Below, one piece after another: positions 22,340-48,197 of a DNA stretch of 64,000 nt. A program made the translations under genes and the position numbers. The notes under the pieces are model-generated. The model was not told the DNA's origin. It was given only the letters and a program-made list of their open reading frames with translations, and searched no databases. Source of the stretch: Leuctra nigra (lineage: Eukaryota > Arthropoda > Insecta > Plecoptera > Leuctridae). The stretch covers positions 50,369,411 through 50,433,410 of the forward strand of contig OW203762.1 in NCBI GenBank assembly GCA_934045905.1, in the 5' to 3' direction. Each line of letters starts with the position of its first letter. The stretch's first letter is position 1.

Positions 22340-22469
22340 CACTTGCCAATGACAAGTGTGAACAGACGAGGCAGTGTTATATCATACCTCAATGACAAGT
22401 GTGAGCAGACGAGGCAGTGTTATATCATACCTCAATGACAAGTGTGAGCAGACGAGGCAGTGTTATATC
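22340..22469 (+). repeat. 43-bp minisatellite, left block (3 units)
   Basis: Units of cctcaatgacaagtgtgaac agacgaggcagtgttatatc ata. The block ends at gttatatc, where the LINE begins. It continues at 27806 with atacctcaatg, so the LINE split one array. Confidence 0.95.
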
Positions 22470-22579
22470 GCAGAAGATGGCGATGTCGGTATTAGTGGAT
22501 GGAGCCATGAAGGAGTTAAAACAATTAGGTATATAAGGGTGAAATACAAGAGGAGTTAAAGAAGAGGGGAGTTGGCAAT

Positions 22580-24532
22580 GTGTGCGGAAAAAAAACGAAA
22601 TTATTAAGTATATTAACGGGGTTGGTAAATAACGATACAGAAGCAGAGGACACTTCTAGTGACGGTGATGCAAGTGAGGTTAGGTTAGGCGGGGATGCAA
22701 GTGAGGGGGCGGACAATGGCGAGAGTCATGAAGTGCAAGTGTCAAACAGTGAGATAGAAGTAGAAGCATTGCAAACTAAGATCGAGAGGCTCCAACAGCA
22801 ACTGCAGGCAGAAAGTGTAAATAATGTATGTAAAGAAAATCATGAAGATGACGGGCGCCCTGCTGGAGAGCCGGCAACACCTCTGATTCAAAGATGTGGC
22901 AGCTGCGAGGCGTGGAAAAAAGCTACAAAAATGGCCAGTAAGGTAATCGAAGAAATGAATAAGAGTTATAAGTTACTGGAAGAACGGTATGAGGAGCTAA
23001 AAATATCACACCTAGGCTTGGAGAAATCATTGACAAAGCATGATGGTGATGAGTATAGACTAGGGGCTGGGGTGAAGGGGGCGAGCGCGGTACCTGCTTC
23101 GAAATATCAACTACAGGTAGCGCCCCCTCTTGGTGAAGGAGTGACACCTGGCGGACAAAGGGGGACAGCTGCTGGCGCGGGTCAATCGCGCCAAATTCAA
23201 ATTCAAATGGAGGAAAATAGTTACAAAAACTACCACAGCCAGTTTCAGTTCCAACAGCATAAGCAACAGCAAGTACAGAAACCACAATTAGTTATGAAAC
23301 AGCAAGTACAGCACCCCGAGTATGTTCAGCAGCTCAAGCAGCAGCAGCAGCAGCAAGGTCAGCTTTTTCAACAAAGCCATCAGCATTGGCAACAGGAGCA
23401 GCAGTTACAATTACAACTACAGCAACAATCTCGTATCCAACAACAGCAACAAGAACATCACCAACATCACCAGCAGCAGCAACTGCAACTGCAACAACAA
23501 CTACAACAACAACAGCAACAGCAACAGCAACAGCTACAACAACATCAACAGCAGCAACAACAGCGACAACTACAACAACATCAACAGCAGCAACAACAGC
23601 AGCATCAACAACAACAGAAGCAGCAGCAGCTGGAGAAGGAAGACAAACAGAAGCAGCAAGCAAAACATCAAATGCACAAGCAAAGCCTTCTTCTTGAACT
23701 AAGGCTAAATCACAAACGGGATCAGCAACAACAGCAACAGCAAAGCGAAATGCTGCTGCAGGAGGTACAAGAAGAACAGGGACAGCAACCTCATCAACTC
23801 CTGCAGACACCACAAGAACAACAACAACAAAAACAAATACAGCAGCAGCAACAACAGCAACAGCAGAATAGCGAGCAGAAACAGATTCTGAAACAAAGGA
23901 GGGAAGAAAGATTTCGCCGCATCCTGGAGCTGAGCAAAACACCACCGAGAAACAGCAGCAACAGTGCAACATTGATCGTGTGCGACGAAGGAGAAGTTCT
24001 GGTTATGGGGGACTCTCTAATAAGAGGTGCAGGTGTCGTCTGCAGGAAAAGTGGGTGTGCGGTGGACGTGTTTCCAGGCATTCGAATTGCTGAACTAGGA
24101 AACATGTTAAAGCTGATGGAGAGGACAATCACTCCAAAAGTAGTAGTTTTGAACGTCGGAACAAACAATGTTCGTGTCGGAAGGAGTCGATATAGCGGAA
24201 GTTCTGAGCGCCACCTCATGGTGGAGATGGAAGAGCTTCTTGGGGTGGGAATGGCTAAATACCCTGAAGCCCGGTTTATAGTCAACGGGATGATGTACAG
24301 AGCAGACGTACATGACGAAACAATGGACAAACTAAATGAAAGTGTTTCGTGGCTGTGCGAAGAGTTGGGTGCCAAGTTCGTCCCACTAAGCCACGAGTTC
24401 CCAAATAATTTCGCATCAGGGGACGGGCTGCACCTCAACACGGCGGGGGGAGAGAAGCTGGGTAGAATTATTGTAGAATGTATTCAAAAGGAGCTGGGGA
24501 ATAGTGAAAGGGCATCAAAAAACGAATTGTAG
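22580..24532 (+). CDS. LINE ORF1: coiled coil, Gln-rich region, SGNH hydrolase
   Basis: It encodes about 650 residues, open from 22529. The N-terminal part is acidic, with coiled-coil heptads around residues 57-78 and 118-150 and a CGSCEAW Cys pair. Residues about 215-440 are Gln-rich, with long pure Q runs from mixed CAG/CAA. The C-terminal third is an SGNH/GDSL esterase: GDSLIRG (Ser, about residue 478), VGTNN, and DGLHLN (Asp and His, about 615-618). Family knowledge: CR1 ORF1 proteins carry such an esterase and bind nucleic acid. The first in-frame codon at 22580 is GTG. A likely true start, ATG 22477, is in another frame and hits TAA after 18 codons, so a small frameshift near 22525 may have broken the N-terminus. 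Confidence 0.88.
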   Translation: MCGKKTKLLSILTGLVNNDTEAEDTSSDGDASEVRLGGDASEGADNGESHEVQVSNSEIEVEALQTKIERLQQQLQAESVNNVCKENHEDDGRPAGEPATPLIQRCGSCEAWKKATKMASKVIEEMNKSYKLLEERYEELKISHLGLEKSLTKHDGDEYRLGAGVKGASAVPASKYQLQVAPPLGEGVTPGGQRGTAAGAGQSRQIQIQMEENSYKNYHSQFQFQQHKQQQVQKPQLVMKQQVQHPEYVQQLKQQQQQQGQLFQQSHQHWQQEQQLQLQLQQQSRIQQQQQEHHQHHQQQQLQLQQQLQQQQQQQQQQLQQHQQQQQQRQLQQHQQQQQQQHQQQQKQQQLEKEDKQKQQAKHQMHKQSLLLELRLNHKRDQQQQQQQSEMLLQEVQEEQGQQPHQLLQTPQEQQQQKQIQQQQQQQQQNSEQKQILKQRREERFRRILELSKTPPRNSSNSATLIVCDEGEVLVMGDSLIRGAGVVCRKSGCAVDVFPGIRIAELGNMLKLMERTITPKVVVLNVGTNNVRVGRSRYSGSSERHLMVEMEELLGVGMAKYPEARFIVNGMMYRADVHDETMDKLNESVSWLCEELGAKFVPLSHEFPNNFASGDGLHLNTAGGEKLGRIIVECIQKELGNSERASKNEL

Positions 24533-24540
24533 ATGGGGGA

Positions 24541-27432
24541 ATGAAAATAGGACCAATGGACAGAAGGACGGGGGAAATAAAGAAAAGTGTAAAAATTGTA
24601 AATAGATATAAGTTACGGTTTTTAGAAGTAAATTGTAGAAGTGTATTTCCTAAACAGCTTCAATTCAGCTCACTAATTGACTGTCATCAGCCTGATGTAT
24701 TCATTGGCGTTGAATCCTTCCTGGACCCCGATATCCGGGACACAGAAGTGTTTGGTGCCGGTTTCAGGATATTCAGGAGAGACCGAAACCGTCATGGAGG
24801 TGGAATATTTATCGGGGTCAGGGAAGGATTAAGATGCAGAGTTGAGTGGGTTGAAAAGGAAGTAGAGATGATGTGTGTTGAAGTAAAAGAAAGAAATGTG
24901 GTCCTAAAGATTGTTGCGGGGTATAGACCGGGAGGAATCCAGCTGTTAGAGAGACTCAACGAAAGGTTGCAGGAATGGAGTGAAGAGGCGAGAGTGGTGA
25001 TTGGAGGGGACTTTAATCTACCTGGGGTTCTGTGGGACATGGGCGATGAAAGTGTGCCACATAAGACGCAAGCCCTGGTACATCAAATAATGAACCAGGG
25101 TTTTGTACAGACGGTGCAGGAGGGAACGAGAGGTTATGGGAACAACAATAGGTCAAACCTCCTAGACGTCTTCCTCGTTCGTCCACCGAACCTATGGTTA
25201 GGAGGGGAGGTAGTCGAGGGAATAAGTGATCACCAGGTACCAATTTTAGACATAGATTTTGTAAATAAAAGTGAGGAAAAAGCAGAAACATACAAAGAGA
25301 TTTGGCTGTACAGAAAGGTAGATAAAGATGGAGTAAAAAAGTTCATGGGAGAAATGTTCGATGATTGGTCTTGTAAAGAGGAAATTTGTGAAGTTAGATG
25401 GGAAGCGCTCAAGGACCTATTAAACACATGTAGGGAAAAGTTCGTGCCGCGTAAAATCATTCGTCCAAATAGCGATCCGCCTTTTTACAATAAATCTGTC
25501 AGAACAATAAAGAGAAAAGCGAGAGTACTGCATAGAAAGAAGGGCAGGTTAGAAGAAAATGAATGGAGAGTGAAGCGTAAAGCTATTAGAGAAGAGCTTA
25601 CTGGTGCTAAGAAAGATGCCAAAGATAAATATATGGAGAGACTGTTTGATGAGCAGGACATCAAAAGTAGCTGGAGAAAACTTTATGCCCATATTAGAGG
25701 GCAGAAAGGAAGTGGCAGAGACATTCCTGGTCTGAAGGACGATAATTCGGAGGCAGATAAGGACGAGGATAAGGCAGAGATGCTAAGCACTCAGTTTTCC
25801 AGAGTTTCTCAAGCAAAGGACAGGGAATATATTGGAGGGAGAAATGAAAAAGCTATGTGGGAAAGTTTGAATATAACGACAACAGATATATGGAAAGAGG
25901 TCAGAAAAATAAAGAGTGGAAAGGCAGAGGGGCCAGACAATATTTCAGGGGATACTGTAAGGATGGCAGGAAATAGCATAATTCAATATTTGGATGAGCT
26001 TTTCAGAATATCTTTTGCCACAAATACGTTACCTCTAGAATGGAAGCAAGGGACGGTGGTCCCAATATTCAAGGCAGGGGAGAGAGGTGATCCCAGAAAC
26101 TACAGACCGGTTAGCCTTACCTCTGTGATCTGCAAGACCATGGAGGGGGTCATAGCCAAGTACGTTCGGGGTCACCTAGTGAAACTGGGATGGCTAAGGA
26201 GCGAGCAACATGGCTTCCGACCGGGACACTCGTGTGAGTCCCAGTTAGCGGGTTTATCGGAGGACCTTCATGAGGCGTTGGATAAAGGCGAAGTCGTGGA
26301 CGCAATCTTGATTGACTTTGAGAAGGCCTTCGACAAGGTGCCTCATGGGGAGTTGTTGGGTAAGCTTGGCAGCTTGGGACTGCACGAGGGAGTGGTGGAC
26401 TGGATAGGCAGTTTCCTTCGCAACAGATCACAGAGAGTTAGGGTAGGAAAATGCCTATCCAGGAGAGTAGCTGTTACATCAGGGGTACCCCAAGGAAGCG
26501 TGTTGGGTCCCCTGCTGTTTATAATATATGTAAATAATATTGGGGAGGGCGTTACAGCTAAGGTTCGATTATTTGCAGACGATCTGATTCTGACCAAACT
26601 TATAAGGTGTGATCAGGACAGAAGGGAGTTGCAGGAGGATGTATATAAAATAGAGACATGGGCGATTAAAAATAAAATGGTTGTGAATGCAAAAAAATGT
26701 CAGTATGTTAGATTTTCGAGGGCACGGAATGTAGATAGTGGAAGTTACCAAATGGGAGGGGTGCTATTAGACAAACAGGATAGCTGTAAATACCTTGGTG
26801 TGGTGCTAGATCGAAAGATGGACGGGGACTTACAAATCGGATCGGTAGTCGCAAAATCATCAAGGCAGTTAGCGTTTGTGATGCGAAGCTTGAAGGGCGC
26901 AAGCCATAGAACCAAAGCAAAAGCGTACACAACGCTAATCAGGCCCATCGTGGAATATGCTGGAGCAGTATGGGACCCTTACAAAAAGGGACAGATCAGG
27001 GCGATAGAGAATGTTCAGAGAAGAGCCGCTAGAAAAGTAACGGGCAAAACAAAATACAGAAAGTGGGTCATAGCAAACAAAGGGCATAAGGTGGGAAGTG
27101 AGTTCAAGATCACACTCCAACGGGTTCCCGAAAGTGTAAGCGAAATGCTAAAGGAGATAGAGTGGGAATCGTTGGAGGATAGGAGGAGGAAGGCTCGCCT
27201 TTTAAACATGTACAGAGCGTTAGTCGGGAAGGAGGCTTGGAAGGAGGTGGCGAGTAGGTTTGCGATGCCGGACTACTACAGCAGGAACGACCATTCGTGG
27301 AAAATCAAGGAGAGAAGGTCGCGTACTGAGGGTGGTAGGCATTCGTTCGTGAACCGAACCATTAGAGAATGGAACTCGATGGATCTCCGGGAATTTCCAG
27401 CCGACTTGGCCGAGTTGAAAAGCTTAGTTTAG
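24541..27432 (+). CDS. LINE ORF2: APE endonuclease and reverse transcriptase, 963 aa
   Basis: ATG follows the ORF1 stop by 8 nt in a different frame. The N-terminal endonuclease shows FLEVNCRS, ESFLD, GGDFNLPG and SDHQVP. The central reverse transcriptase has NYRPVSLTSVICK, QHGFRPGHSCESQL, IDFEKAFDKVPH, GVPQGSVLGPLLF and the catalytic LFADDLIL, then NAKKCQ and YLGVVLD. The C-terminal part has the CR1-like LIRPIVEYAG and VQRRAARKVTGK block. No stop or frameshift was seen, so the enzyme may be intact. It acts by nicking the target and priming reverse transcription on it. Confidence 0.95.
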   Translation: MKIGPMDRRTGEIKKSVKIVNRYKLRFLEVNCRSVFPKQLQFSSLIDCHQPDVFIGVESFLDPDIRDTEVFGAGFRIFRRDRNRHGGGIFIGVREGLRCRVEWVEKEVEMMCVEVKERNVVLKIVAGYRPGGIQLLERLNERLQEWSEEARVVIGGDFNLPGVLWDMGDESVPHKTQALVHQIMNQGFVQTVQEGTRGYGNNNRSNLLDVFLVRPPNLWLGGEVVEGISDHQVPILDIDFVNKSEEKAETYKEIWLYRKVDKDGVKKFMGEMFDDWSCKEEICEVRWEALKDLLNTCREKFVPRKIIRPNSDPPFYNKSVRTIKRKARVLHRKKGRLEENEWRVKRKAIREELTGAKKDAKDKYMERLFDEQDIKSSWRKLYAHIRGQKGSGRDIPGLKDDNSEADKDEDKAEMLSTQFSRVSQAKDREYIGGRNEKAMWESLNITTTDIWKEVRKIKSGKAEGPDNISGDTVRMAGNSIIQYLDELFRISFATNTLPLEWKQGTVVPIFKAGERGDPRNYRPVSLTSVICKTMEGVIAKYVRGHLVKLGWLRSEQHGFRPGHSCESQLAGLSEDLHEALDKGEVVDAILIDFEKAFDKVPHGELLGKLGSLGLHEGVVDWIGSFLRNRSQRVRVGKCLSRRVAVTSGVPQGSVLGPLLFIIYVNNIGEGVTAKVRLFADDLILTKLIRCDQDRRELQEDVYKIETWAIKNKMVVNAKKCQYVRFSRARNVDSGSYQMGGVLLDKQDSCKYLGVVLDRKMDGDLQIGSVVAKSSRQLAFVMRSLKGASHRTKAKAYTTLIRPIVEYAGAVWDPYKKGQIRAIENVQRRAARKVTGKTKYRKWVIANKGHKVGSEFKITLQRVPESVSEMLKEIEWESLEDRRRKARLLNMYRALVGKEAWKEVASRFAMPDYYSRNDHSWKIKERRSRTEGGRHSFVNRTIREWNSMDLREFPADLAELKSLV

Positions 27433-27805
27433 ATGTCAGAATTATTGAATGTTAAAATTATTGATAAGAATATTAAGTATTAAGAGTATTAAGAGTATTA
27501 AGAGTATTAAGTATTAAGTATTAAGTATTATTGAGTATAAAGATTATTAAGAGTATTAAGAGTACCTATTAAGTCGGCGAATTAACAGTTAAAAGCGATC
27601 TAGCATTAATATTCACAGTAATAGTTATAGTTATATTTATATTTATATAAGTATTTATTTTTATTAATTTATATAAATTACTTTAACCTATAAGATTGTT
27701 TTAGTTGTATTTTAATTTGACTTAGATTCTAGAAAATATTTAGTATTAAGACCTCTACCACCTGTTCAATGTAACAAATTGTAGAAAAATAAACATACAT
27801 ACATA

Positions 27806-28682
27806 CATACATACCTCAATGACAAGTGCGAACAGACGAGGCAGTGTTATATCATACTTCAATGACAAGTGTGAACAGACGAGGCAGTGTTATATCATAC
27901 CTCAATGACAAGTGCGAACAGACGAGGCAGTGTTATATCATACCTCAATGACAAGTGTGAACAGACGAGGCAGTGTTAAATCATACCTCAATGACAAGTG
28001 TGAGCAGACGAGGCAGTGTTATATCATACCTCAATGGCAAGTGTGAGCAGACGAGGCAGTGTTATATCATACCTCAATGACAAGTGTGAGCAGACGAGGC
28101 AGTGTTATATCATACCTCAATGACAAGTGCGAACAGACGAGGCAGTGTTATATCATACCTCAATGACAAGTGCGAACAGACGAGGCAGTGTTATATCATA
28201 CCTCAATGGCAAGTGTGAACAGACGAGGCAGTGTTATATCATACCTCAATGACAAGTGTGAACAGACGAGGCAGTGTTATATCATACCTCAATGATAAGT
28301 GTGAACAGACGAGGCAGTGTTATATCATACTTCAATGACAAGTGCGAACAGACGAGGCAGTGTTATATCATACCTCAGTGACAAGTGCGAACAGACGAGG
28401 CAGTGTTATATCATACCTCAATGACAAGTGCGAACAGACGAGGCAGTGTTATATCATACCTCAATGACAAGTGTGAACAGACGAGGCAGTGTTATATCAT
28501 ACCTCAATGACAAGTGCGAACAGACGAGGCAGTGTTATATCATACCTCAATGACAAGTGCGAACAGACGAGGCAGTGTTATATCATACCTCAATGACAAG
28601 TGTGAACAGACGAGGCTGTGTTATATCATACCTCAATGACAAGTGTGAACAGACGAGGCAGTGTTATATCATACCTCAATGT
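27806..28682 (+). repeat. 43-bp minisatellite, right block (about 20 units)
   Basis: Same unit as 22340-22469, with variants at gtgtgaac/gtgcgaac/gtgtgagc and single substitutions. Spacing is 43 bp (for example 27971 and 28014). 43 is not a multiple of 3 and frames are not conserved, so it is not coding. Confidence 0.95.
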
Positions 28683-28773
28683 CAACGAGATCTAATTGTA
28701 AAGAAACAAATAAAGGAAACACGTCTTTGAATGAATGAAATATGATTTTACTGAATCCCTCAGTTAGGTGAAT

Positions 28774-29718: not shown

Positions 29719-32700
29719 ATGATGAAGAAGATTCTGCTGGTGATTGCGTGCGCATCGCTGCTCAGAGGTAACATTGTTTTCCCACCAACATCATTAACAT
29801 GGCAATTCACACTGCACATAACCTTAGACTAAACGAAAGCTGTATTTGCTCTCATTGTGACTCAACCTGTTCCACTAAATTGGCTCCACTCCTTCGAATT
29901 CAGGTTCAAGTATTATTTTGGTAGCCGTGATTTCACATTCGACAAGAATATCTCCATCTTTCTGCTTGACAATATATAGTTGTTTCTAAGCAAGTTCAAG
30001 GAAGTTTTTTATTACTATTTTCAAACACTCTCCTCCTCTGCCACATTTATTTTCGGTCGTAAATGAATTGTTTATAGAATCACAAAACGTTTCATTCAAT
30101 AATACAACAAAATACAAAGTAGTGAGCAGTAATTATTGATAATTATATAAAATTCACAATTATGAACCATAACATTACAAGTTACAAAAAAGGAAAAACA
30201 TTTAATTACTTTTAATTTTAATATGGAGACCGGCTCATACCTTTGGCAATCACTGTACCTACTTAGTCATGGTTTCAATAGCCCGCTATGTAACACATTG
30301 GTTCATTCTTTCTGCATGAATTAGTTCAATTATTGTTGTTGAGAAAATAGGGACGGAACATATTTTCTTTGCTGAAACTCGAATTCATACCCGATGATGC
30401 GAAATCCACTTAGTAAAAATCCAATAGAACTCCACTCAATTGTCCGTCCGTTGTGTCTGGTAAATGTCGGGAAAATTCCGAATGTAAACCCAAAGCCATT
30501 TCCCAACTGATCTGCGCCTCTCGCAACAGATTTCACCTCCGCGAACTCTGATGGCTGCCGACCGCCGGCAGAGTGCGTCACGACGACCGAGTGTTTCCGA
30601 CGCCACGGCAACGCGCAGTCCGTGCTGTACCCATGCGACCGCGGCGTCTGCTGTCCCTCGCCGACGCCGACGCCGACGAGCCCGACGCCCACGCGGATCG
30701 GGGACATCATGCAGCACAATAACATGAAACTCCTGCCCCAGGACTGCGGCCTTGCTTCGTCCGACAGGATCATACAGGGAAAGAACGCATCCCTCGGCCA
30801 GTTCCCTTGGATGGCTTTGATAGGAGTCAAAGGTAGGTAATAATTAACAAATTATGTATGTAAATTATAACCTCGTGACTCGTATACTGATATTAATGAC
30901 CATTACCTAGAAATTGTTATGATAAATTGATGACCATTTAAAAAAATCATGATTTCAAGATTTATTTTTCCAATGTGATATATTATGGTAATTTACAATA
31001 ATAATGATATTGTGTACATGCCCCTATAGCTTGTGACAGAATGCTTTTAAATTATAGGTATGTGTTATACTTGTCTTGGCCATTAGGAACAACATACCAG
31101 GTCTACATTACCTAGTAAATGTGTCACAGTAGACTCTTAGAAATGAAAGCGTAGTAGGTATGCAGTAAGAAGGTACTTATACTTGGTATAGCAAAGAAGC
31201 GCAAACCAATTTTGTGAAGAAACGGGTGATTGCAAGTTATTAGTGAACGACAAGTATTCATATTCATATTCAGTATTCTATTCATATTTATATGAATAGA
31301 AATACATACAAGGTTTTCTTGAGTTCTCGTTCGTGGCCCATAGTTTACTTACATACATAACATGCTTGAATATGAATAAAAAGCCGGATATCTTTACTCG
31401 AGCTATCTACCAAAATAAAATATTGCACTTCAAGTAGGCCATCGTGCTGACCATCCAGAGGCAGAGGTGAAGTTGGCATTCAGCCAGACGCACCACCACC
31501 ACTGAACGTCATCATGAAGTTGGATACTTGTGCCTCCATGATCACACCAATCAGTGAGGAGAGATGGATTGGTCCAAGACATCTTCAGAACCGGATATTC
31601 TCTTGTCCCATTGCTAATGAGACTCTGTGTTTGCAGCGAGGAGACAAACGACGGTGCAATATATCTGCGGGGGGAGCGTCATCAGCAGTCTGTACGTGCT
31701 AACAGCAGCACATTGCGTCCGAGATCCAGACAAAACTGTGTGAGTAATACATAGCACAATACTCAGCGCAATACATAGCACAATACTCAGCGTGGACAGA
31801 TCACGCGATTTATAAATAATTTTTAAATTATCATTTCAAATGTCTGCGGTCGTGGAGTCAACTACCCGTGCATATGACACAGCAAATAACTTTTTCGTTT
31901 ATTACAACTATATTTAAGTATACAATTATCATTTGATGTCATGAAGCTTGCAACTCCCATCCAATGAGTTTTGAATTATATGTCTTTTGAGAATGAACAA
32001 AATGGGAGGTACCTATAGGAAAATCACTTCGAATTTTGTTTCTATCTTTTAAAATAGCACACGTTGGTATTATTTCAATTTTTTCCTGAAAGTATGTCCA
32101 TATCTACCAGAATCTACCACAAAGCTAATCGTACAAAAAAGGATTTTCATCCTAAAAATGAAATGACACGATTTTACTTTATTGCCATAGGATTATGTAT
32201 GGCATGATTCTCAATGACAATAAGTACACAAACAATTATGCAGATCTGAGACCATGCCTCCAGTGAAACGACCAGGGATTGAAGATCGCAGAAAAGAGTA
32301 AAGTAGATCTGAGTGAAGATCTGAGTAAAGTATTGATCACATTAAAACCATTCGGATCTAGACTGTCATGGAAAGTATAGTTGTGGAAATGTTTTTATGT
32401 GATGTGTATTTGTCAGAGTGATCGTGCGTCTGGGGGAGCACGATCAGAACACGAACCCCGACTGCGAGCAGAACTCCATCGACGAGCCTCCGGTGTGCAC
32501 GTCAGTGGTCGACATCGCCGTCAAGCAGGTGACTGCGCATGAGCGGTACAACAGCACCACGTTGAAGAACGACATCGCGCTGATCCGACTGTCGAAGCCC
32601 ATCGTCTTCAACACCGTCTACATCTCCCCCATCTGTCTGCCGTTCGGAGTCACAGACACGGGGGCGGAGGAGAAGAACTACATCGTCTCTGGCTGGGGAA

Positions 32701-35700
32701 AACTCAACGGACTCAGTGAGGATGGCAATATCTCAAACACAGAACTAGAAAACTAGATATTAAGCAATCTTATTAATATTTATAGTTCACCACCGTGTGT
32801 CTGTCCTGACTTGCGAATTACTTGTCTTCAGGGACCGAGAGAGGCAGTCCCTTGCTGCAGTGGGCCACCGTGTCTGTCCTGACTTGCGAATGACTTGTCT
32901 TCAGGGACCGAGAGAGGCAGTCCCTTGCTGCAGTGGGCCACCGTGTCTGTCCTGACTTGCGAATGACTTGTCTTCAGGGACCGAGAGAGGCAGTCCCTTG
33001 CTGCAGTGGGCCACCGTGTCTGTCCTGACTTGCGAATGACTTGTCTTCAGGGACCGAGAGAGGCAGTCCCTTGCTGCAGTGGGCCACCGTGTCTGTCCTG
33101 ACTTGCGAATGACTTGTCTTCAGGGACCGAGAGAGGCAGTCCCTTGCTGCAGTGGGCCACCGTGTCTGTCCTGACTTGCGAATGACTTGTCTTCAGGGAC
33201 CGAGAGAGGCAGTCCCTTGCTGCAGTGGGCCACCGTGTCTGTCCTGACTTGCGAATGACTTGTCTTCAGGGACCGAGAGAGACAGTCCCTTGCTGCAGTG
33301 GGCCACCGTGTCTGTCCTGACTTGCGAATGACTTGTCTTCAGGGACCGAGAGAGGCAGTCCCTTGCTGCAGTGGGCCACCGTGTCTGTCCTGACTTGCGA
33401 ATGACTTGTCTTCAGGGACCGAGAGAGGCAGTCCCTTGCTGCAGTGGGCCACCGTGTCTGTCCTGACTTGCGAATGACTTGTCTTCAGGGACCGAGAGAG
33501 GCAGTCCCTTGCTGCAGTGGGCCACCGTGTCTGTCCTGACTTGCGAATGACTTGTCTTCAGGGACCGAGAGAGGCAGTCCCTTGCTGCAGTGGGCCACCG
33601 TGTCTGTCCTGACTTGCGAATGACTTGTCTTCAGGGACCGAGAGAGGCAGTCCCTTGCTGCAGTGGGCCACCGTGTCTGTCCTGACTTGCGAATGACTTG
33701 TCTTCAGGGACCGAGAGAGGCAGTCCTTTGCTGCAGTGGGCCACCGTGTCTGTCCTGACTTGCGAATGACTTGTCTTCAGGGACCGAGAGAGGCAGTCCT
33801 TTGCTGCAGTGGGCCACCGTGTCTGTCCTGACTTGCGAATGACTTGTCTTCAGGGACCGAGAGAGGCAGTCCCTTGCTGCAGTGGGCCACCGTGTCTGTC
33901 CTGACTTGCGAATGACTTGTCTTCAGGGACCGAGAGAGGCAGTCCCTTGCTGCAGTGGGCCACCGTGTCTGTCCTGACTTGCGAATGACTTGTCTTCAGG
34001 GACCGAGAGAGGCAGTCCTTTGCTGCAGTGGGCCACCGTGTCTGTCCTGACTTGCGAATGACTTGTCTTCAGGGACCGAGAGAGGCAGTCCCTTGCTGCA
34101 GTGGGCCACCGTGTCTGTCCTGACTTGCGAATGACTTGTCTTCAGGGACCGAGAGAGGCAGTCCTTTGCTGCAGTGGGCCACCGTGTCTGTCCTGACTTG
34201 CGAATGACTTGTCTTCAGGGACCGAGAGAGGCAGTCCCTTGCTGCAGTGGGCCACCGTGTCTGTCCTGACTTGCGAATGACTTGTCTTCAGGGACCGAGA
34301 GAGGCAGTCCTTTGCTGCAGTGGGCCACCGTGTCTGTCCTGACTTGCGAATGACTTGTCTTCAGGGACCGAGAGAGGCAGTCCCTTGCTGCAGTGGGCCA
34401 CCGTGTCTGTCCTGACTTGCGAATGACTTGTCTTCAGGGACCGAGAGAGGCAGTCCCTTGCTGCAGTGGGCCACCGTGTCTGTCCTGACTTGCGAATGAC
34501 TTGTCTTCAGGGACCGAGAGAGGCAGTCCCTTGCTGCAGTGGGCCACCGTGTCTGTCCTGACTTGCGAATGACTTGTCTTCAGGGACCGAGAGAGGCAGT
34601 CCCTTGCTGCAGTGGGCCACCGTGTCTGTCCTGACTTGCGAATGACTTGTCTTCAGGGACCGAGAGAGGCAGTCCCTTGCTGCAGTGGGCCACCGTGTCT
34701 GTCCTGACTTGCGAATGACTTGTCTTCAGGGACCGAGAGAGGCAGTCCCTTGCTGCAGTGGGCCACCGTGTCTGTCCTGACTTGCGAATGACTTGTCTTC
34801 AGGGACCGAGAGAGGCAGTCCTTTGCTGCAGTGGGCCACCGTGTCTGTCCTGACTTGCGAATGACTTGTCTTCAGGGACCGAGAGAGGCAGTCCTTTGCT
34901 GCAGTGGGCCACCGTGTCTGTCCTGACTTGCGAATGACTTGTCTTCAGGGACCGAGAGAGGCAGTCCCTTGCTGCAGTGGGCCACCGTGTCTGTCCTGAC
35001 TTGCGAATGACTTGTCTTCAGGGACCGAGAGAGGCAGTCCCTTGCTGCAGTGGGCCACCGTGTCTGTCCTGACTTGCGAATGACTTGTCTTCAGGGACCG
35101 AGAGAGGCAGTCCTTTGCTGCAGTGGGCCACCGTGTCTGTCCTGACTTGCGAATGACTTGTCTTCAGGGACCGAGAGAGGCAGTCCCTTGCTGCAGTGGG
35201 CCACCGTGTCTGTCCTGACTTGCGAATGACTTGTCTTCAGGGACCGAGAGAGGCAGTCCTTTGCTGCAGTGGGCCACCGTGTCTGTCCTGACTTGCGAAT
35301 GACTTGTCTTCAGGGACCGAGAGAGGCAGTCCCTTGCTGCAGTGGGCCACCGTGTCTGTCCTGACTTGCGAATGACTTGTCTTCAGGGACCGAGAGAGGC
35401 AGTCCTTTGCTGCAGTGGGCCACCGTGTCTGTCCTGACTTGCGAATGACTTGTCTTCAGGGACCGAGAGAGGCAGTCCCTTGCTGCAGTGGGCCACCGTG
35501 TCTGTCCTGACTTGCGAATGACTTGTCTTCAGGGACCGAGAGAGGCAGTCCCTTGCTGCAGTGGGCCACCGTGTCTGTCCTGACTTGCGAATGACTTGTC
35601 TTCAGGGACCGAGAGAGGCAGTCCCTTGCTGCAGTGGGCCACCGTGTCTGTCCTGACTTGCGAATGACTTGTCTTCAGGGACCGAGAGAGGCAGTCCCTT

Positions 35701-36150
35701 GCTGCAGTGGGCCACCGTGTCTGTCCTGACTTGCGAATGACTTGTCTTCAGGGACCGAGAGAGGCAGTCCCTTGCTGCAGTGGGCCACCGTGTCTGTCCT
35801 GACTTGCGAATGACTTGTCTTCAGGGACCGAGAGAGGCAGTCCCTTGCTGCAGTGGGCCACCGTGTCGGGTCTGTCGACTGACGACTGCAACGCGCTCGC
35901 GGGAAGCGCCGTGAAGCTGGACCAGAGTCAGCTGTGCGCCGACGACGCCTTCGGCTCCGACGCCTGTCAGGGGGACAGCGGAGGACCCCTCATGGTCGTA
36001 CACAAACTGCCCTCCAGAGAATCACCACAGGCGTTCGTCCTCGGCGTCGTCTCGTTCGGCTTCAGGAATTGCGCCACTCAGAATGCTCCCAGTGCTTACA
36101 CCAGAGTGAACCATTATCTCCATTGGATATTGGATCATATGTCGAAATAA
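29719..36150 (+). CDS. CLIP-domain serine protease C (5 exons, 359 aa)
   Basis: Exons: 29719-29767, 30530-30832, 31637-31739, 32417-32715, 35825-36150. GT-AG introns, phases 1,1,2,1, 360 codons with stop. Exon 1 is a signal peptide ([16 protein letters not shown]). Exon 2 has the CLIP domain ([21 protein letters not shown]), a Pro-Thr linker from an acgccg repeat, inter-chain Cys PQDCGL and activation site DR-IIQG. His: LTAAHC. Asp: KNDIALIRL. Ser: CQGDSGGPL with Asp six residues before it, so a full triad and trypsin-like specificity are expected. Family knowledge: a secreted, activatable haemolymph protease. Intron 4 consists almost entirely of a 73-bp array that repeats its own 3' splice site. 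Only the last acceptor, at 35823-35824, gives an open exon 5. Confidence 0.92.
32793..35867 (+). repeat. 73-bp tandem array of the intron 4/exon 5 boundary, 42 units
   Basis: Each unit holds accgtgtctgtcctgacttg, cgaatgacttgtcttcag, then the first 35 exon bases (ggaccgagagaggcag...gggcc). AG positions run from 32830-32831 to 35823-35824 and differ by 2993 bp, exactly 41 x 73, so the total length shows no net indel. Every unit has branch-point-like tgac sequences and a pyrimidine tract before AG. Read from any upstream AG in the exon 5 frame, translation stops at the tga of gcgaatga. Variants: agtccc versus agtcct in ten units, one gagaca unit, one gaatta in the first unit. Confidence 0.97.
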
Positions 36151-36151
36151 A

Positions 36152-38087
36152 CTCCGCTATTTTACTCTCATCCAACGACTGTTGATGCAGATCACTGACT
36201 GAGGGATTCAGCAAGATGCAGATGATGGTTCTTTTGAACACGCTCCGAGAGTTGTTCAGAAGTCAGGTTGTTTATTTGGTACAAATTGTATTGAAACAGG
36301 TGGTAACATCAAACTAATGATCAAACTGAGGATTCTTATAGTGTATATTACATTACAGTTTGGGATGCTTTGTCCCGACGTGTCAGCAGACCCCCCCCCC
36401 CCCCCCCCCCCCCCCAAATGGTCCAGCAAAATTTTTTAAGCGAGCAGGTGGTGGTTTGAGTCTCGCAGTAAAACATTTTTTTTTGAAAAAATAGGGTAGT
36501 AAGCACAATTCTATTTCAATAATCTAACAATATAGAGTACCTACATTACGACCTCTGGGGAACGTTCTCAAAATAGTATGTATTATTATAGAATTTAACG
36601 TTTTAAGGACGTTACAGAGGTCGTAATGTGTTATGTGTGGGGTATTTAGTTAAAAGTTAGATATAATTGTGCGTTTTTGGCTAGATTTTTTTAAATTTTA
36701 TTCAAACTAAAAAATTAAAAAAGACAATTTGAAATGCCGCGTCCGATACATTCTCAATGCTTATGGCAGTGAGGATGTTAGTCGCCACTTGATTCAACTG
36801 TGTCTTCTTATGCCGCCCCTCGACAGTTTGCTGACACGGCGTGAAAAACAGCTCTCTTGAGGACCAATAAGAGTAAGACTAAGAGTAAGACAACATCTCT
36901 CTGAGCGTGTAGAAAAGAATTAGCAACTGCATGCACATCATTCTCAATTATTCTTTTTAACATTATCAACATATTTCTGATTATGATCAGAAATTCATAA
37001 TTATATGATTTAAAAATCATGGAACTGAAGTAAAGAATCGATGAGGTCCGAAAATACATAATTATGCATCACAGTCGGCTGAGGAAAGCACAAGCCAAAA
37101 TATCCCCTGTTTATGTTTCGAAGTTGACTAATATTATTGCCAAGTGCGCTGTCACTCACTGCTTGGGAGACGTCACTTAGAAATAGGATCACGCCAGAAA
37201 GAATATTGTGATAATTATTTAATTCCATTTTAATACAATATTTTTTATAATATGTCATTGCAGAAATGTCTTAATTATGAATAAAGAACTTGCAGCACAA
37301 TTGCCACGACTTTAATATCGACAGTTACTTTCCACTACACCCCTATTTGGTAGATATGGAAAACATCCATTATAGATGTTGATTATGTGAAAATCCTGAT
37401 TATGGAAGATCAGTCTAACCCGGAATATCGATTTTTTTCTCTTTGTAAACAAAAGTAAATATTAATTGGAATTGAATAAACATCTCCTGGTACAGAGCCA
37501 ATGCACGATCCAAATATCCCGGGCTCACGCCGTTAAGATTAAATTAAATAAATATCAGTCATAAACTATGCCAGTACATCGAAGCAAGCAAGTGATGTAA
37601 CATGAACTCTGACCTGACCTCGGTAACACTGCATCTCTGACGGGATTTGCAACCCGCAGCCATATCTGCCGCTGCTGTACAGAGCTGTCAAATATACACG
37701 GTAAGATCAGATCTATATTACGAACCATAGGTTTGAAAACTATTATGACATAGTGTTTTGAACCTTGGGGGTTTGTGTTCAATATTCTTGAGGTGAAATA
37801 AGAAATTAGTTTGTCTGCCTTCACCCAAACTTATTTCTAATGGTGGTACCAGTATTTTGATTGAAAGAGAATGCATTAACTTATTTGTTGGCTGCAGTCA
37901 ATTTAAAATCGATAGAGGCGTGATTATACATTATTACAAATAAGTGTCGAACATAAATCGAGAAAATGGATTTTCGGCCTTCTGTTTTTATTTCCTTGTG
38001 ACGTCACATCAATTGAACCGTGAAAAGTGTTTTTATCGCATACGATGGAACTTATTATTTAGATTTTATTCATATGATTTCAGGAGA
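36152..38087. other. Intergenic region between genes C and D
   Basis: No coding exon was found. It contains a C homopolymer (36391-36415) and a short inverted repeat acattacgacctctg / cagaggtcgtaatgt (36543-36629). The end of the region (tatgatttcag before the ATG of gene D) looks like a splice acceptor, so gene D may have a 5' UTR exon upstream. Confidence 0.4.
36391..36415. repeat. C25 homopolymer
   Basis: Twenty-five consecutive C bases after tgtcagcaga. Length is likely polymorphic and assembly-sensitive. Confidence 0.9.
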
Positions 38088-44000: not shown

Positions 44001-47000
44001 GATTTACCGACCTGATGTGACTGATGTCTCCGCAGAACTCTGCATCCGAGGAATCGGACTCATCCTCGTAGGGCGATTTCAATACATTTGAAATGTTACC
44101 TCGTTGCTTCTTGCATACTCGAGATGTGTGTCCCTTCTGCTTGCACGTGAAGCACTGCCATTGTCGGGCGGGGCACGTGACTTCGGCATGACGACGGCTG
44201 CAACGACGACAGGGTTCAAACTGTTCTCGTGGACTTGCATTTGGAACTGTAGACTGGTAGTCCTGAGTGCGAGACTTCCGCTGACTGGGTTGACTAGAAG
44301 ACGGTTTTCTGGAACTACCCATTCGATTACGACTCGCAGACTGGCTGCGACGTCTTGGCGTCAGCTGGTTGATCTCGTGGTCCTTCTGAGCAGGTTGTAA
44401 AATGGCGGCATTTTCAGTAGCTAATTCGTGACTTTTAGCTAACTGGGTTACTTGTTCTAGAGACAACTGGGATTTCTCAAGTAATCGCTTTTGAAATGCC
44501 TTATCCCTAATTCCTACCACAAATCGGTCCCGAAGAGTATCTTCAGCAGTGCCAGGAAATTTGCAGTAATGAGCTAATTGATTAAGCTCAACCAAATACT
44601 CGGACATAGTCTCTTTTTCCTGTTGCACTCTTCGGTTAAATTTAAAACGTTCCATAATTACCGACTTTTGTGGTGAAAAATGCTGCTTTAGAAGAGTGAT
44701 TAACTCATCATAAGACTTGGTCTTGACTTCACTGGGTACACATAGCTTCTTAAGTAGTCTGTACGTCTCCGGCCCTATCAAAGTGATAAGTAAATCAACT
44801 TTACCTTCAGCTTCGATGGAATTTACCTTCAAATAACTCTGGAGGCGCTCTTCATACTCTTCAAATTCTTCCAACGACTTGTCGAAAGCTACCATGTGGC
44901 CCAAGACCCGGTGCGACGCCATTTTAAACTCGATTTTTACGTCAACTTCTTCCTCTTCTGTGGACTCAAATATCGTGTCCAATGATGGTTTCTCGGAGTT
45001 CTCATATCCTCGTCGCCAGAATGTGATGTCTTTAGACTTCTTAATGATGAGCACGGGTGAGGATGCAGAAGGATGAATAAGATTTAGACTGCTCTGTCTG
45101 AAGGTACATTTACTACTGTCAGATCGTACGATACATCCTGCAGTCCCAGGTTCGACCGGACCTGACGTCACTAGTCACTGCACTAGTCAAGTCATGGTAC
45201 TGACATTACAACTATAAATAAATTATCCAATGAAACTAATTGAATGATCTCTCTAGAAATCGTTGGAGAGGCGAATTTTATAGCAACAGATATTTGCGAA
45301 AAAAAGACATGCACGACATGTTTATTTCATTTGATCTGTAATGTGAAAACAACACTCAGACACACAAATCGGAGATTCGAGCCAGAATGGAGAAGTGTAC
45401 CACGTGATCTGGAACTTGCAGGATGCGAGGTTGCCAGGTCGCCAGTGCGCGAGACCCGATGCATCGGGCTGTACGACTGCATCGCCTCGACGACGTGCAC
45501 AGACAAGCATCGCGACGCCAACTCCGACGCCCTTGCCAACAGGCTCATCTTCCGGTGTGGACCTCCAGACGCCGACACGGTCTGTTGTCCTGTCGTTGAC
45601 GATCCCGACAGGAACAAGCACAGGAACAGGGGGCTCTTCGACGGGAACTGCAGCTCGGCGTTTGGAAATAGATTATTCGGCGGGGATGACGCTTCTTTGG
45701 GGCAATTTCCTTGGATGGCGCTGATCGGAGTCACATGCAAGTAGTTGCCTTATTTCCATGGATGAGATTGGCAGCAAGCTAGATTCTGTTCAATTCTGTC
45801 AGTAGCTACCCCGGAACGTTTAAAAGTTAGAACAATGCTGTATTTTGCTCTAATAAAACTTCGAACCAATACCGTTTTGTTTAACTTTCAATATAAAAAT
45901 GAATTCTGAAACAATGTTAACATTGTTCTTGGATGTTGAGATTCTTTCGACAGAACCACGAAAACTAACATTGTGCTTTCGCCAGCGTCTATTTTTCAAG
46001 TTTTCATGCATTTTCCTATGATTTTCATGTACTGCAAATGATTGTTCAGTTTGAATATTTGACAGTAATATGATCACTATTGACATACTATTTTATCAAC
46101 AGAAGAACTAATGTCTTTTGTTGCAGCCAAGGAATATTCGGGTGTTCAGTACATATGTGGAGGCAGTGTAATCAACAATCGCTATATTTTAACTGCAGCC
46201 CATTGCGTCATCAATGTAACAAAAGTGTAAGAAAATGTTACCAATAAACTCAAACACAACTCACTAAAATCACACAATGTTCCTGGATGTTTTTTGTTAA
46301 TTGAGCGAGCGAAGCGAGCGACTCCTTTTGACTCTTTTGACACGGACCTCTGTTTTTCGTTTTTTTGTTTTGGCTGCTATCTGGAGCAATAGTAGTCGCA
46401 CCGTTTCACCGATCGATCTGAAATTTTGCACACATGTAGAGACAACCTTTTCTGTTTGCAGACCCAATTTTTTTTGAAATCCATTCATTGGTTAAAATTT
46501 AAATAAACATCACCTGATAGGTTGAAAAATGAAAATGGTCTTCGATAAATCTTATCAAACTCATATTTTGCATGATCATTATGACCAACATTGTCTCTTA
46601 TTTTACAAATTTTCATCCCTATCAGTTAAGAACGTATGAACTTATTGACAGTTTTAATAGCTGTCATAAATGAAGTATCGAAATGAATGTTTTCCAGTGC
46701 CAATTGAATTGAATCTGATTTGCTATATGTCAGGGTGCTTAGATGCTATTTCCAAGTTTCGATGAAAAGCATATTATACTTTTATGTTGATTGAGTGGAT
46801 CACATTTCAATTCAATATGGGTGAATATGTTTTCTGTGCTTTGTGTACGCATTTCCGGTTCGAGAATTTACACGTACCCGTGCTCGCTCATCAACGCGTT
46901 TCACTGAGCGTTTTCCTGGTATTCTGTGTGAACACTTCATAATTCATAAACGTACACGTAATGTGACATGTCAAGTGATGTCATGACATGTCATGTGATG

Positions 47001-48197
47001 TTATGATGTCACGACATGTCAAGTGATGTCATGATGTCAAGTGATGTCATGTGATGTCATGATGTCACGAAATGTCAAGTGATGTCGTGACATCATGACA
47101 TGTCAAGTGATGTCATGATGTCAAGTGATGTCGTGACATGTCAAGTGATGTCATGACATGTCAAGTGATGTCGTGACGTCAAGTGATGTCGTGACGTCAA
47201 GTGATGTCGTGATGCAGACATGCTGTGCGTCTGGCCGAGCACGACCTGAGGAACTTCACGGACTTCGAACCCACTTTCACGGAGGTCATCAGCGTGAACG
47301 CTACGGAGGTGCGCTCCAGCCGAGTCCACATCCATCCCGACTTCAACGACATGACTCTGCGCAACGACGTCGCGCTCATCAGACTGAAGACCCCGATCGT
47401 CTTCGGCGAATACATAAAGCCCATCTGCTTGCCGTTCGGGATGGATGACATGGCCGAGACGGAGAAGCAGTACTTGGTGGCAGGATGGGGTCTGACAGGT
47501 GAGGGAATATCGCATGCTTTCCGCTCCGCGTTATATTAGCCTTTGGCTGACTACAATATATTAGCATGAACAATATTTTGTGGAAAATATATTGTCAAAT
47601 CCAAGAGAAACTATAAGGGAAACTGGGACCATAAGAATCGACTCTGTTTGAGCGGAATTGAATACTACTAGAATAAAAAAAAACATTCGAATCGGTTTAG
47701 TCGAGTTTTAGAAAAGGGAATAGTGAAAACTAGTTTTTGATTTTAATTGATATACCTTTCCTTTGTTCGTGAAATATTCACATTCATAAATTGAATACTG
47801 TTCGCTCGTGTCAGCTCAGCTAAGTTTGAACTGGATTTCGTTAAAAAAAACTATTCTCTTCCTCTCCATTTCGCCAGGATTCGCATCACCGAGAAGCAAT
47901 ATCCTGCAGTATGCGTCTATCAACAGCACTGACCCGGAGGAATGTGACTACTTGGCCCCGACACGCTCTCTAGTGGCGCGAGTGGACAACAGCACCCAGA
48001 TATGCGCATCCTCGATCTCGGGCGGCGTCGCGTGCAGGGGAGACAGCGGTGGACCACTCTTCATGATCTACAACAACAAGTACTTCGTCATTGGAGTCGT
48101 CTCGTTCGGATTGCGCATGTGTGATGACATCCACTCAGCGAGCGTCTTCACTAGAGTGCATCCTTACCTCAACTGGATTCTGGACACTGTTAGATAA
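38088..48197 (+). CDS. CLIP-domain serine protease D (5 exons, 356 aa)
   Basis: Exons: 38088-38142, 45422-45736, 46127-46226, 47218-47498, 47878-48197. Phases 1,1,2,1, 357 codons with stop. Exon 1 is a short signal peptide (MNSPWSSLMIFTLHMLYC). Exon 2 has the CLIP Cys pattern (GCEVARSPVRETRC, YDC, TVCCP), inter-chain Cys DGNCSS and cleavage site NR-LFGG. His: LTAAHC. Asp: RNDVALIRL. Ser: CRGDSGGPL. The triad is complete, but the S1 residue six before the Ser is Val, not Asp, so it should not be trypsin-like. Intron 2 uses a GC donor (GCAAGT at 45737) if phase is to be kept. The exon 4 acceptor lies against a gatgtcatgtca repeat. Intron 1 carries a gypsy element. Confidence 0.88.
38449..38637 (-). 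repeat. 3' LTR of the gypsy element
   Basis: 189 bp, nearly identical to 45022-45210. One visible difference is ctctgtatgaagg here versus ctctgtctgaagg there. Confidence 0.93.
38785..39180. mobile_element. Foldback element, 396 bp, arms of about 150 bp
   Basis: The arms start cccataaaaaacacttcgtg and, inverted, the same. They continue through taccagccaagtctcttcaa and gaaaatcaaaaaatacttgg with almost no mismatch. The loop is about 85 bp. It is nested in the gypsy element. Confidence 0.9.
39380..40290. repeat. Diverged tandem repeat, period about 250-270 bp, four units
   Basis: The phrase gacgtcacttccggtttcaa + aatggcggc recurs near 39406, 39675, 39942 and 40194. Companions are tttccggtYt, ccgtctgaatcgtttggcgc and ccgttgacgagatatgacgt. 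No ORF is present. It is part of the 3' non-coding tract of the gypsy element or an older insert in it. Confidence 0.75.
40918..44922 (-). pseudogene. gypsy gag-pol, single frame with one internal stop
   Basis: It runs from ATG 44922-44920 to TAA 40920-40918, 1334 codons in one frame, interrupted once by TAG at 43350-43348 in the N-terminal part of the reverse transcriptase. Order: gag with two zinc knuckles (CRRCSRRHAEVTC and CFTCKQKGHTSRVC), aspartic protease (VDSGAACTI), reverse transcriptase (LDLSNAYLQL, VYLDDILI), RNase H (LACDASPYGVGAVLS, ITDHQPLK), integrase with an HHCC finger (HPGVVRS ... CVACQ) and DDE residues (LDFAER, VTDNGPP, NGLENFVG). Gag and pol are in the same frame, without a frameshift site. 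The frame also stays open upstream into the LTR, but a gag start at 44922 is more sensible. Probably inactive unless the TAG is a sequencing error or is read through. Confidence 0.9.
45022..45210 (-). repeat. 5' LTR of the gypsy element
   Basis: 189 bp, with TG...CA ends, and followed on the minus strand by the primer-binding site. Confidence 0.93.
46301..46920 (+). mobile_element. Dispersed GAGCGAGCG element, copy 4, intron 3 of gene D
   Basis: It begins ttgagcgagcgaagcgagcg, includes gatcgatctgaaattttgca, and ends tgctcgctcatcaacgcgtt + tcactgagcgttttcct. The inner body differs from copies 2 and 3 and is shorter (620 bp). The terminal 60 bp match the minus-strand end of copy 3 well. Confidence 0.8.
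46962..47215 (+). repeat. Short-period tandem repeat flush with the exon 4 acceptor of gene D
   Basis: Irregular units of about 17-19 bp built from atgtcaagtgatgtcRtgac. The array runs into gatgcag, whose AG is the splice acceptor (47216-47217), so the usual polypyrimidine tract is replaced by repeat sequence. Confidence 0.9.

Follow-up and report, generated by a model that had tools for sequence, protein, structure and literature searches.

Forty-two copies of an intron 4/exon 5 boundary in a putative CLIP-type serine protease gene of Leuctra nigra

Gene C of Leuctra nigra, a putative gene of a CLIP-type serine protease, contains a tandem array of 42 units of 73 bp across the boundary between intron 4 and exon 5. 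Forty-one sequence-complete 3' splice sites, non-productive in silico, precede the sole productive one. The gene lies in a stretch of 64,000 nucleotides (GenBank assembly GCA_934045905.1, contig OW203762.1, positions 50,369,411 to 50,433,410, forward strand), referred to as the window; coordinates are those of the window unless a contig is given. Because other genes of L. nigra have similar arrays across their splice sites, we lean towards reading the array as a long acceptor-side counterpart of the mirages of amphioxus rather than as a special switch. The array would then be removed mainly with the intron, with the last acceptor mainly used.

Gene C and the anatomy of its array

The joined exons of gene C (29719-29767, 30530-30832, 31637-31739, 32417-32715, and 35825-36150) read as one open frame and give a secreted-type serine protease of 359 aa.

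29719..29767, + strand: exon 1, coding part with a signal-peptide-like, putative start (joined-exon translation)
30530..30832, + strand: exon 2, CLIP-like cysteine module and activation site DR/IIQG (translation, alignment with insect homologues)
31637..31739, + strand: exon 3, catalytic His (TAAHC; translation, alignment)
32417..32715, + strand: exon 4, catalytic Asp (NDIAL), end GWGKLNGL, donor TCA/GTGAGG (translation, alignment)
35825..36150, + strand: exon 5, from the acceptor of unit 42 to the stop codon, catalytic Ser (GDSGG; translation, alignment)
36146..36151, + strand: AATAAA that shares bases with the stop codon; it may serve the terminal exon as poly(A) signal (sequence only)

No further AATAAA occurs within 32700-36300. 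Pfam Trypsin matches the protein with an E-value of 8.5e-50, and the triad motifs TAAHC, NDIAL, and GDSGG are aligned. Six N-terminal cysteines ending in CC align with those of homologues; at an E-value of up to 0.001, Pfam reports Trypsin only, and not CLIP. Gene C looks like a CLIP-type serine protease gene with all five exons intact. Among the best 120 of 5118 protein matches, many bear the names of insect phenoloxidase-activating factors and melanization proteases. The best-scoring of them, at 36-39% identity, are multi-domain proteins from ants and a moth. Within the top rows, a stick insect protein has the highest identity (49% over 78%), and the full-length relatives include katydid, termite, and cockroach proteins, a composition that suggests a polyneopteran insect. 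With 113 of 459 candidates scored in the genome of L. nigra itself, no close second copy of gene C was found; the next best-scoring exon match is 48% identical.

Tandem Repeats Finder (TRF) places the array at 32797-35867, with a period of 73, 42.1 copies, 99% matches, and 0% indels. An anchored count gives 42 acceptors (CAG/GGACCGAGAGA, the slash marking the junction), the first exon base of which is 32832 + 73k (k = 0-41). The acceptor spacing is exactly 73 in 41/41 intervals, in agreement with the 42-fold 73-bp repeat that the initial annotation had described at this boundary. With 42 perfect periods, chance is not an issue. In a search of the genome, all 42 matches of the unit among the best-scoring candidates fall in contig C2 50402211-50405349, at one locus only.

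32797..35867, + strand: tandem array, 42 units of 73 bp, each with 35 bp of the end of intron 4 and 38 bp of the start of exon 5
32797..32869, + strand: unit 1, edge variant with T at -13 and left flank GTGTGTC (anchored unit count)
32716..32831, + strand: intron 4 if there were one unit only, 116 nt from the donor to acceptor 1 (joined-exon translation)

The intron part of the unit consists of CTGAC, a short pyrimidine tract, and CAG, and the exon part is GGACCGAG. The A of the branch-point-like CTGAC is at -23 in the consensus unit, the junction is CAG/GG, and no AG occurs within 20 bases upstream of the acceptor AG in 42/42 units. There are four near-identical unit types: 30 units are consensus, 10 have C>T at +20 (the third position of a Pro codon), unit 7 has G>A at +13, and unit 1 has G>T at -13. 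Within the units only the left edge deviates, the last unit being consensus. The earlier statement that every unit keeps the tgac, the pyrimidine tract, the AG, and the exon start is thus borne out, with CAG at 42/42 acceptors.

We translated from all 42 acceptors. Acceptors 1-41 lead to a 271-aa product in 41/41 cases, which has a TERG(or D) stretch in its tail, lacks the catalytic serine, and ends at a TGA 19 codons after the split codon. In silico, acceptor 42 alone leads to the 359-aa protease. Both results are as the initial annotation had read them. The terminal exon would be ~3.3 kb long from acceptor 1; acceptor 42 starts a compact last exon. A stop codon is met in each of the three + strand frames over three units, leaving the array without an open frame. 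A coding repeat was rejected, as the 73-bp unit length is not divisible by 3 and stops interrupt the frames.

Ratchet points of recursive splicing have an acceptor followed directly by a donor (AG/GT). Here the junction is AG/GG in 42/42 units, and the best GT inside the unit scores 1.6 bits in a donor matrix, as compared with 3.8-10.2 bits for the four real donors of gene C. Because of the junction and the weak internal donor, recursive splicing, which had been offered as one explanation, is unlikely. By the same matrix, the only frame-keeping one among the six GTs of the unit (15 nt) scores -4.6; we rejected in-frame rescue through an internal donor, as the unit has no plausible one. RNA hairpins masking the decoys were rejected too. 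Most shuffles of the unit fold more stably than the unit itself (z +1.87), the folding of the first intron stretch is ordinary (z -0.63), and accessibility shows no trend across acceptors 1, 2, 21, 41, and 42, the five of 42 that were computed.

Nonsense-mediated decay of decoy-spliced transcripts had also been proposed. Because exon 5 is the last exon, a decoy-spliced transcript has no downstream exon junction, and the classical exon-junction pathway does not fit. Transcripts can also be degraded on account of a long 3' untranslated region, and decay of this type may occur here.

Arrays on other splice sites

Acceptor-spanning arrays are present in four further protease genes, in an Ig-domain exon, and in a P450-like gene of the same genome, and some arrays span donors. 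Only two duplicate genes share a unit; otherwise the units differ from gene to gene.

contig C3:4546181-4550480: one protease gene (L037/L056), two acceptor-spanning arrays, at exon 4 (131 bp x 21) and at exon 5 (139 bp x 6)
contig C3:40306486-40310755: one protease gene (L040/L057), acceptor array of 98 bp x 14 and donor-spanning array of 134 bp
contig C2:50316668-50318961: protease gene L048, acceptor-spanning 80-bp unit x 6, GDSGG kept
contig C2:50330300-50332632: L052, near-identical duplicate of L048, 80-bp unit x 11, GDNGG for GDSGG
contig C2, evenly spaced sample (L014 and L028): P450-like gene with tandem duplications, and Ig-domain exon with a 10-copy acceptor array

The 134-bp array lies over a likely donor, has at least about five copies, and meets the end of the locus. 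The Ig-domain exon matches Ig_2 with an E-value of 0.0003, below the curated cut-off of Ig_2. The other gene of the evenly spaced sample, which we take to be P450-like from motifs that include NCIG and GHDTT, carries a twofold repeat over an acceptor and an approximately twofold one over a donor; its 51-aa exon has no Pfam match.

L048 and L052 are separated by 13.7 kb. Outside the array, their introns align with 954 matches, 20 mismatches, and 4 gap columns, and their last exons differ at 4 of 302 bases; three of these changes are nonsynonymous, and one is synonymous. The number of acceptors in these near-identical genes is 6 (L048) versus 11 (L052). We tested every acceptor of the eight acceptor arrays. 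In seven of them (gene C, the Ig exon, the two 80-bp arrays, and those of 98, 131, and 139 bp), only the last acceptor leads to a conserved marker of the real exon.

The protease set comprises 27 regions: 20 from last-exon matches in other S1 protease genes, the three nearest paralogues, and four more. One of the four added regions was fetched as an apparent duplicate of L048 and has an array; the other three have no array over an acceptor. In the first 23 regions, an array lies over the acceptor in 3/35 matched protease exons, two of them in one gene (131 and 139 bp) and one of 80 bp; the 98-bp array sits on a further exon that the query did not match. About 0.4/35 would be expected from the array density in the sample described below (P about 0.01, a rough value). 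Acceptors are favoured over donors in this set because most regions begin about 2 kb upstream of the last exons.

The sample consists of 20 evenly spaced stretches of contig C2 (200 kb). It contains seven arrays with a period of at least 15 and at least five copies, one of which is the array at the Ig-exon acceptor. A splice site is spanned by 3/16 arrays with a period of at least 30, the 16 being overlapping TRF rows merged by hand; 0.9-2.3 are expected, assuming one splice site in every 5 kb (lower value) to every 2 kb (upper value). The spanning arrays were spotted by eye and then checked by translation, and donors were assigned by eye. By this comparison, overlap with splice sites does not exceed chance. 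Minisatellites would be plentiful in this genome, and those that happen to land on splice sites would be tolerated; the data fit this picture and do not show a targeting process.

Extrapolation to the whole genome gives 1,700-23,500 splice-site arrays, from three cases only. We put forward only tentatively, as a less than even prospect, that the lineage carries very many young arrays of this kind, perhaps thousands, and that splicing in its genes regularly bypasses sequence-complete decoys, up to dozens of them. If so, the arrays would form a natural series of 2-42 copies showing that exon definition, in particular terminal-exon definition, overrides first-come choice of the acceptor, and they would be a large raw stock for intron gain.

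The initial annotation knew of no such system in a CLIP protease. This holds for CLIP proteases and insects as far as our literature search reached: it met no acceptor-side array in either, with most subscription papers outside its reach. Comparable cases have, however, been described in other organisms. The closest are the mirages of amphioxus, found in Adh3 and in the globins BflGb6 and BflGb9 (PMC3087553). Both mirages and the gene C array are minisatellite-like tandem duplications over an intron-exon boundary, and the BflGb6 unit, like that of gene C, joins the 3' end of an intron to the 5' part of an exon. Mirages are homogenised inside, with the edges excluded, and haplotypes differ in copy number (BflGb6 has 6 units in one and 3 in another); reverse-transcription PCR of BflGb6 suggested undisturbed regular splicing. 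The gene C array has the same composition, 35 bp of intron and 38 bp of exon in 42 units, and is likewise homogenised, with 30/42 units identical and a T at -13 private to unit 1; a single allele of gene C was seen. It differs in scale and setting. BflGb6 units are 150-160 bp long and 81-100% identical, in 6 and 3 copies, whereas gene C has 42 units of 73 bp with three variable positions, belongs to an insect, and involves a terminal exon. Mirages, otherwise met only for amphioxus in the accessible literature, would thus extend to an insect, to several gene families, and to copy numbers that differ between duplicate genes.

Other described cases are more distant. The minisatellite of human IFI6/G1P3 (6-16) contains several copies of a splice donor, more than one of which is used (Turri et al. 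1995, via citing papers); splice sites are multiplied in both genes, but they are donors in IFI6 and acceptors in gene C. In the variable-number tandem repeat of ABCA7 intron 18, the 25-bp unit begins with a splice donor, and array length correlates with skipping of exon 19 and lower expression (PMC5954066). The arrays of both genes are long, but that of ABCA7 is intronic and donor-side, and its aberrant event uses a donor one unit further in. By the donor scores above, the gene C unit does not carry a donor as IFI6 and ABCA7 units do. In a potato RdRp gene, a segment composed as in gene C (3' end of an intron and 5' part of an exon) is duplicated in tandem across an acceptor; exon sequence from the first copy is retained in the mRNA, and a new intron arose through a cryptic GTAAG donor (PMC4974935). 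That case is one duplication with a cryptic donor, whereas the internal donors of gene C are weak.

Use of the acceptors

In the reading that we favour, the whole array would be transcribed, and functional mRNA would be made via the last acceptor, to which the possible poly(A) signal is close. The remaining 41 would leave as intron, perhaps with some leakage to the truncated, catalytically dead product. Terminal-exon definition, by which the splicing machinery recognises a last exon, would be a natural candidate for favouring acceptor 42. The anatomy of the array, the reading frames, the recurrence in other genes, the 6 versus 11 copies in sister genes, and the intact state of gene C support this reading. 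The normal splicing suggested for amphioxus BflGb6, which has the same geometry, also supports preference for the last acceptor.

Several observations weigh against it. Acceptor 1 is the first to be transcribed and would give an intron of ordinary appearance, 116 nt long. In a simple model with an assumed elongation rate, equal acceptors competing in order would leave the last one at most 1/42 of the transcripts, and far less if commitment is fast; therefore, gene C has almost no function left unless some factor gives the last acceptor an advantage. The intact exon 5 is no proof of use, because a young array may not have left exon 5 enough time to decay. In the P450-like gene, both acceptors reach the marker, the first with a 26-aa in-frame insertion. 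Loss of the serine in the 11-unit L052, as against GDSGG in the 6-unit L048, could mean that longer arrays weaken genes; this single pair proves nothing, yet may resemble a cost of copy number. In addition, the potato case points to its first acceptor being used (PMC4974935). The scanning model, in which the first AG after the branch point is taken (PMC1431707), does not decide the question, because every unit has its own branch-point-like sequence.

The most serious alternative is loss or strong reduction of function: the early acceptors would mostly be used, mainly the 271-aa protein would be made, and gene C would be null or nearly so in this individual or in the species. Each unit does resemble a complete 3' splice site (CTGAC at -23, no intervening AG), and the short intron closed by acceptor 1, the at most 1/42 productive transcripts under equal competition, and the first-acceptor use implied for the potato boundary (PMC4974935) all point this way. 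So do the longer human ABCA7 arrays, which track lower expression and more exon skipping (PMC5954066), and the 11-unit sister gene without its catalytic serine. However, several genes of the genome would need the same crippling, the frames past the array are conserved in gene C and in other genes (the catalytic serine of L052 excepted), and amphioxus mirages are apparently spliced normally (PMC3087553). We consider such loss unlikely, but worth keeping in view.

Another alternative concerns the length of the array, as one pattern of variant units is present twice:

33673..35424, + strand: units 13-36, two occurrences of one 15-unit pattern (1,095 bp), with C>T at +20 in units 13, 14, 17, 19, and 21, and again in units 28, 29, 32, 34, and 36

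The shift-15 partition of the +20 variants is obtained in 156/200,000 random sets; therefore, the pattern reflects either real growth by a block or a repeat in the assembly. In the latter case the array would be real but a block would have been duplicated or mis-joined, and the true copy number would be smaller (e.g., 27). A pattern repeated twice in a row is what a repeated loop of the assembly graph would give, but 3.1 kb is short for long reads, contig C2 is 57 Mb long, and the same assembly holds other arrays of 21 and 14 units, all of which makes an error of this kind improbable.

That the array is a selected device, the number of decoy acceptors timing or metering protease output as the initial annotation had proposed, is very improbable: only its position at the decisive splice site of a CLIP-type protease speaks for this, as against unrelated arrays on splice sites of the Ig-domain exon, the P450-like gene, and other proteases, the youth of the near-identical units, a sample that fits arrays simply falling on splice sites (3/16; 0.9-2.3 expected), and the lack of an array at the exon 5 acceptor in gene D and in the three nearest paralogues.

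Choice among equal 3' splice sites is usually tested with few engineered copies. Gene C is a good natural test, with 42 copies, of the choice between the acceptor nearest to the donor and the one that defines a compact exon, and the same genome offers copy numbers of 21, 14, 11, 10, 6, and 2.

Origin of the array and other features of the window

A minisatellite would have arisen across the 3' splice site of intron 4. The edges of the array align with each other as an imperfect direct repeat:

32790..32810, + strand: intron-side arm (CCACCGTGT-GTCTGTC-CTGAC, imperfect; edge alignment)
35858..35883, + strand: exon-side arm, inside which the array ends, with a 5-bp overlap GTGTC (edge alignment)

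The arms are identical at 21/21 aligned bases, with two gaps. None of 2000 mononucleotide shuffles matches the score of the repeat (0/2000), and 6/4000 window positions are as good when known arrays are masked; this control replaced an unmasked one that included other arrays (100/2840 positions as good). From the masked count, a pre-existing direct repeat is a plausible seed, and the first duplication could plausibly have used it. The repeat in the intron end and exon 5 would have let a 73-bp segment with the branch point, the pyrimidine tract, the AG, and 38 coding bases duplicate. Unequal exchange or slippage would then have extended the array to 42 units, probably once via a 15-unit block.

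The window contains further minisatellites. At 22347-28685, a non-LTR (long terminal repeat) retrotransposon with an intact 963-aa open reading frame (ORF) seems to be inserted into a 43-bp minisatellite, of which ~3 units remain on the left (22347-22469) and 20 on the right (27810-28685). By eye, this 43-bp array is a minisatellite separate from that of gene C, probably split by the retrotransposon.

By eye, minisatellites also end shortly before the acceptors of exon-4-like exons in genes B and D. That of gene B (17179-17690, - strand, 55 bp x 9) ends 11 bp before the acceptor, and that of gene D (46976-47212, + strand, units of 28-38 bp) ends 5 bp before it. Because of these short distances, the minisatellites probably supply the branch-point region.

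In protease gene B, an inverted-repeat, element-like sequence is located at exon 4 (16627-16930, - strand, by eye). The last-exon candidate of this gene (14131-14304) reads ADVGG instead of GDSGG, and gene B may therefore be a non-catalytic homologue or decaying. At 49830-50059 (- strand), an exact 117-bp tandem pair spans, by eye, an apparent exon end and its donor, and the same coding sequence is present again in the ORF at 51344-51769.

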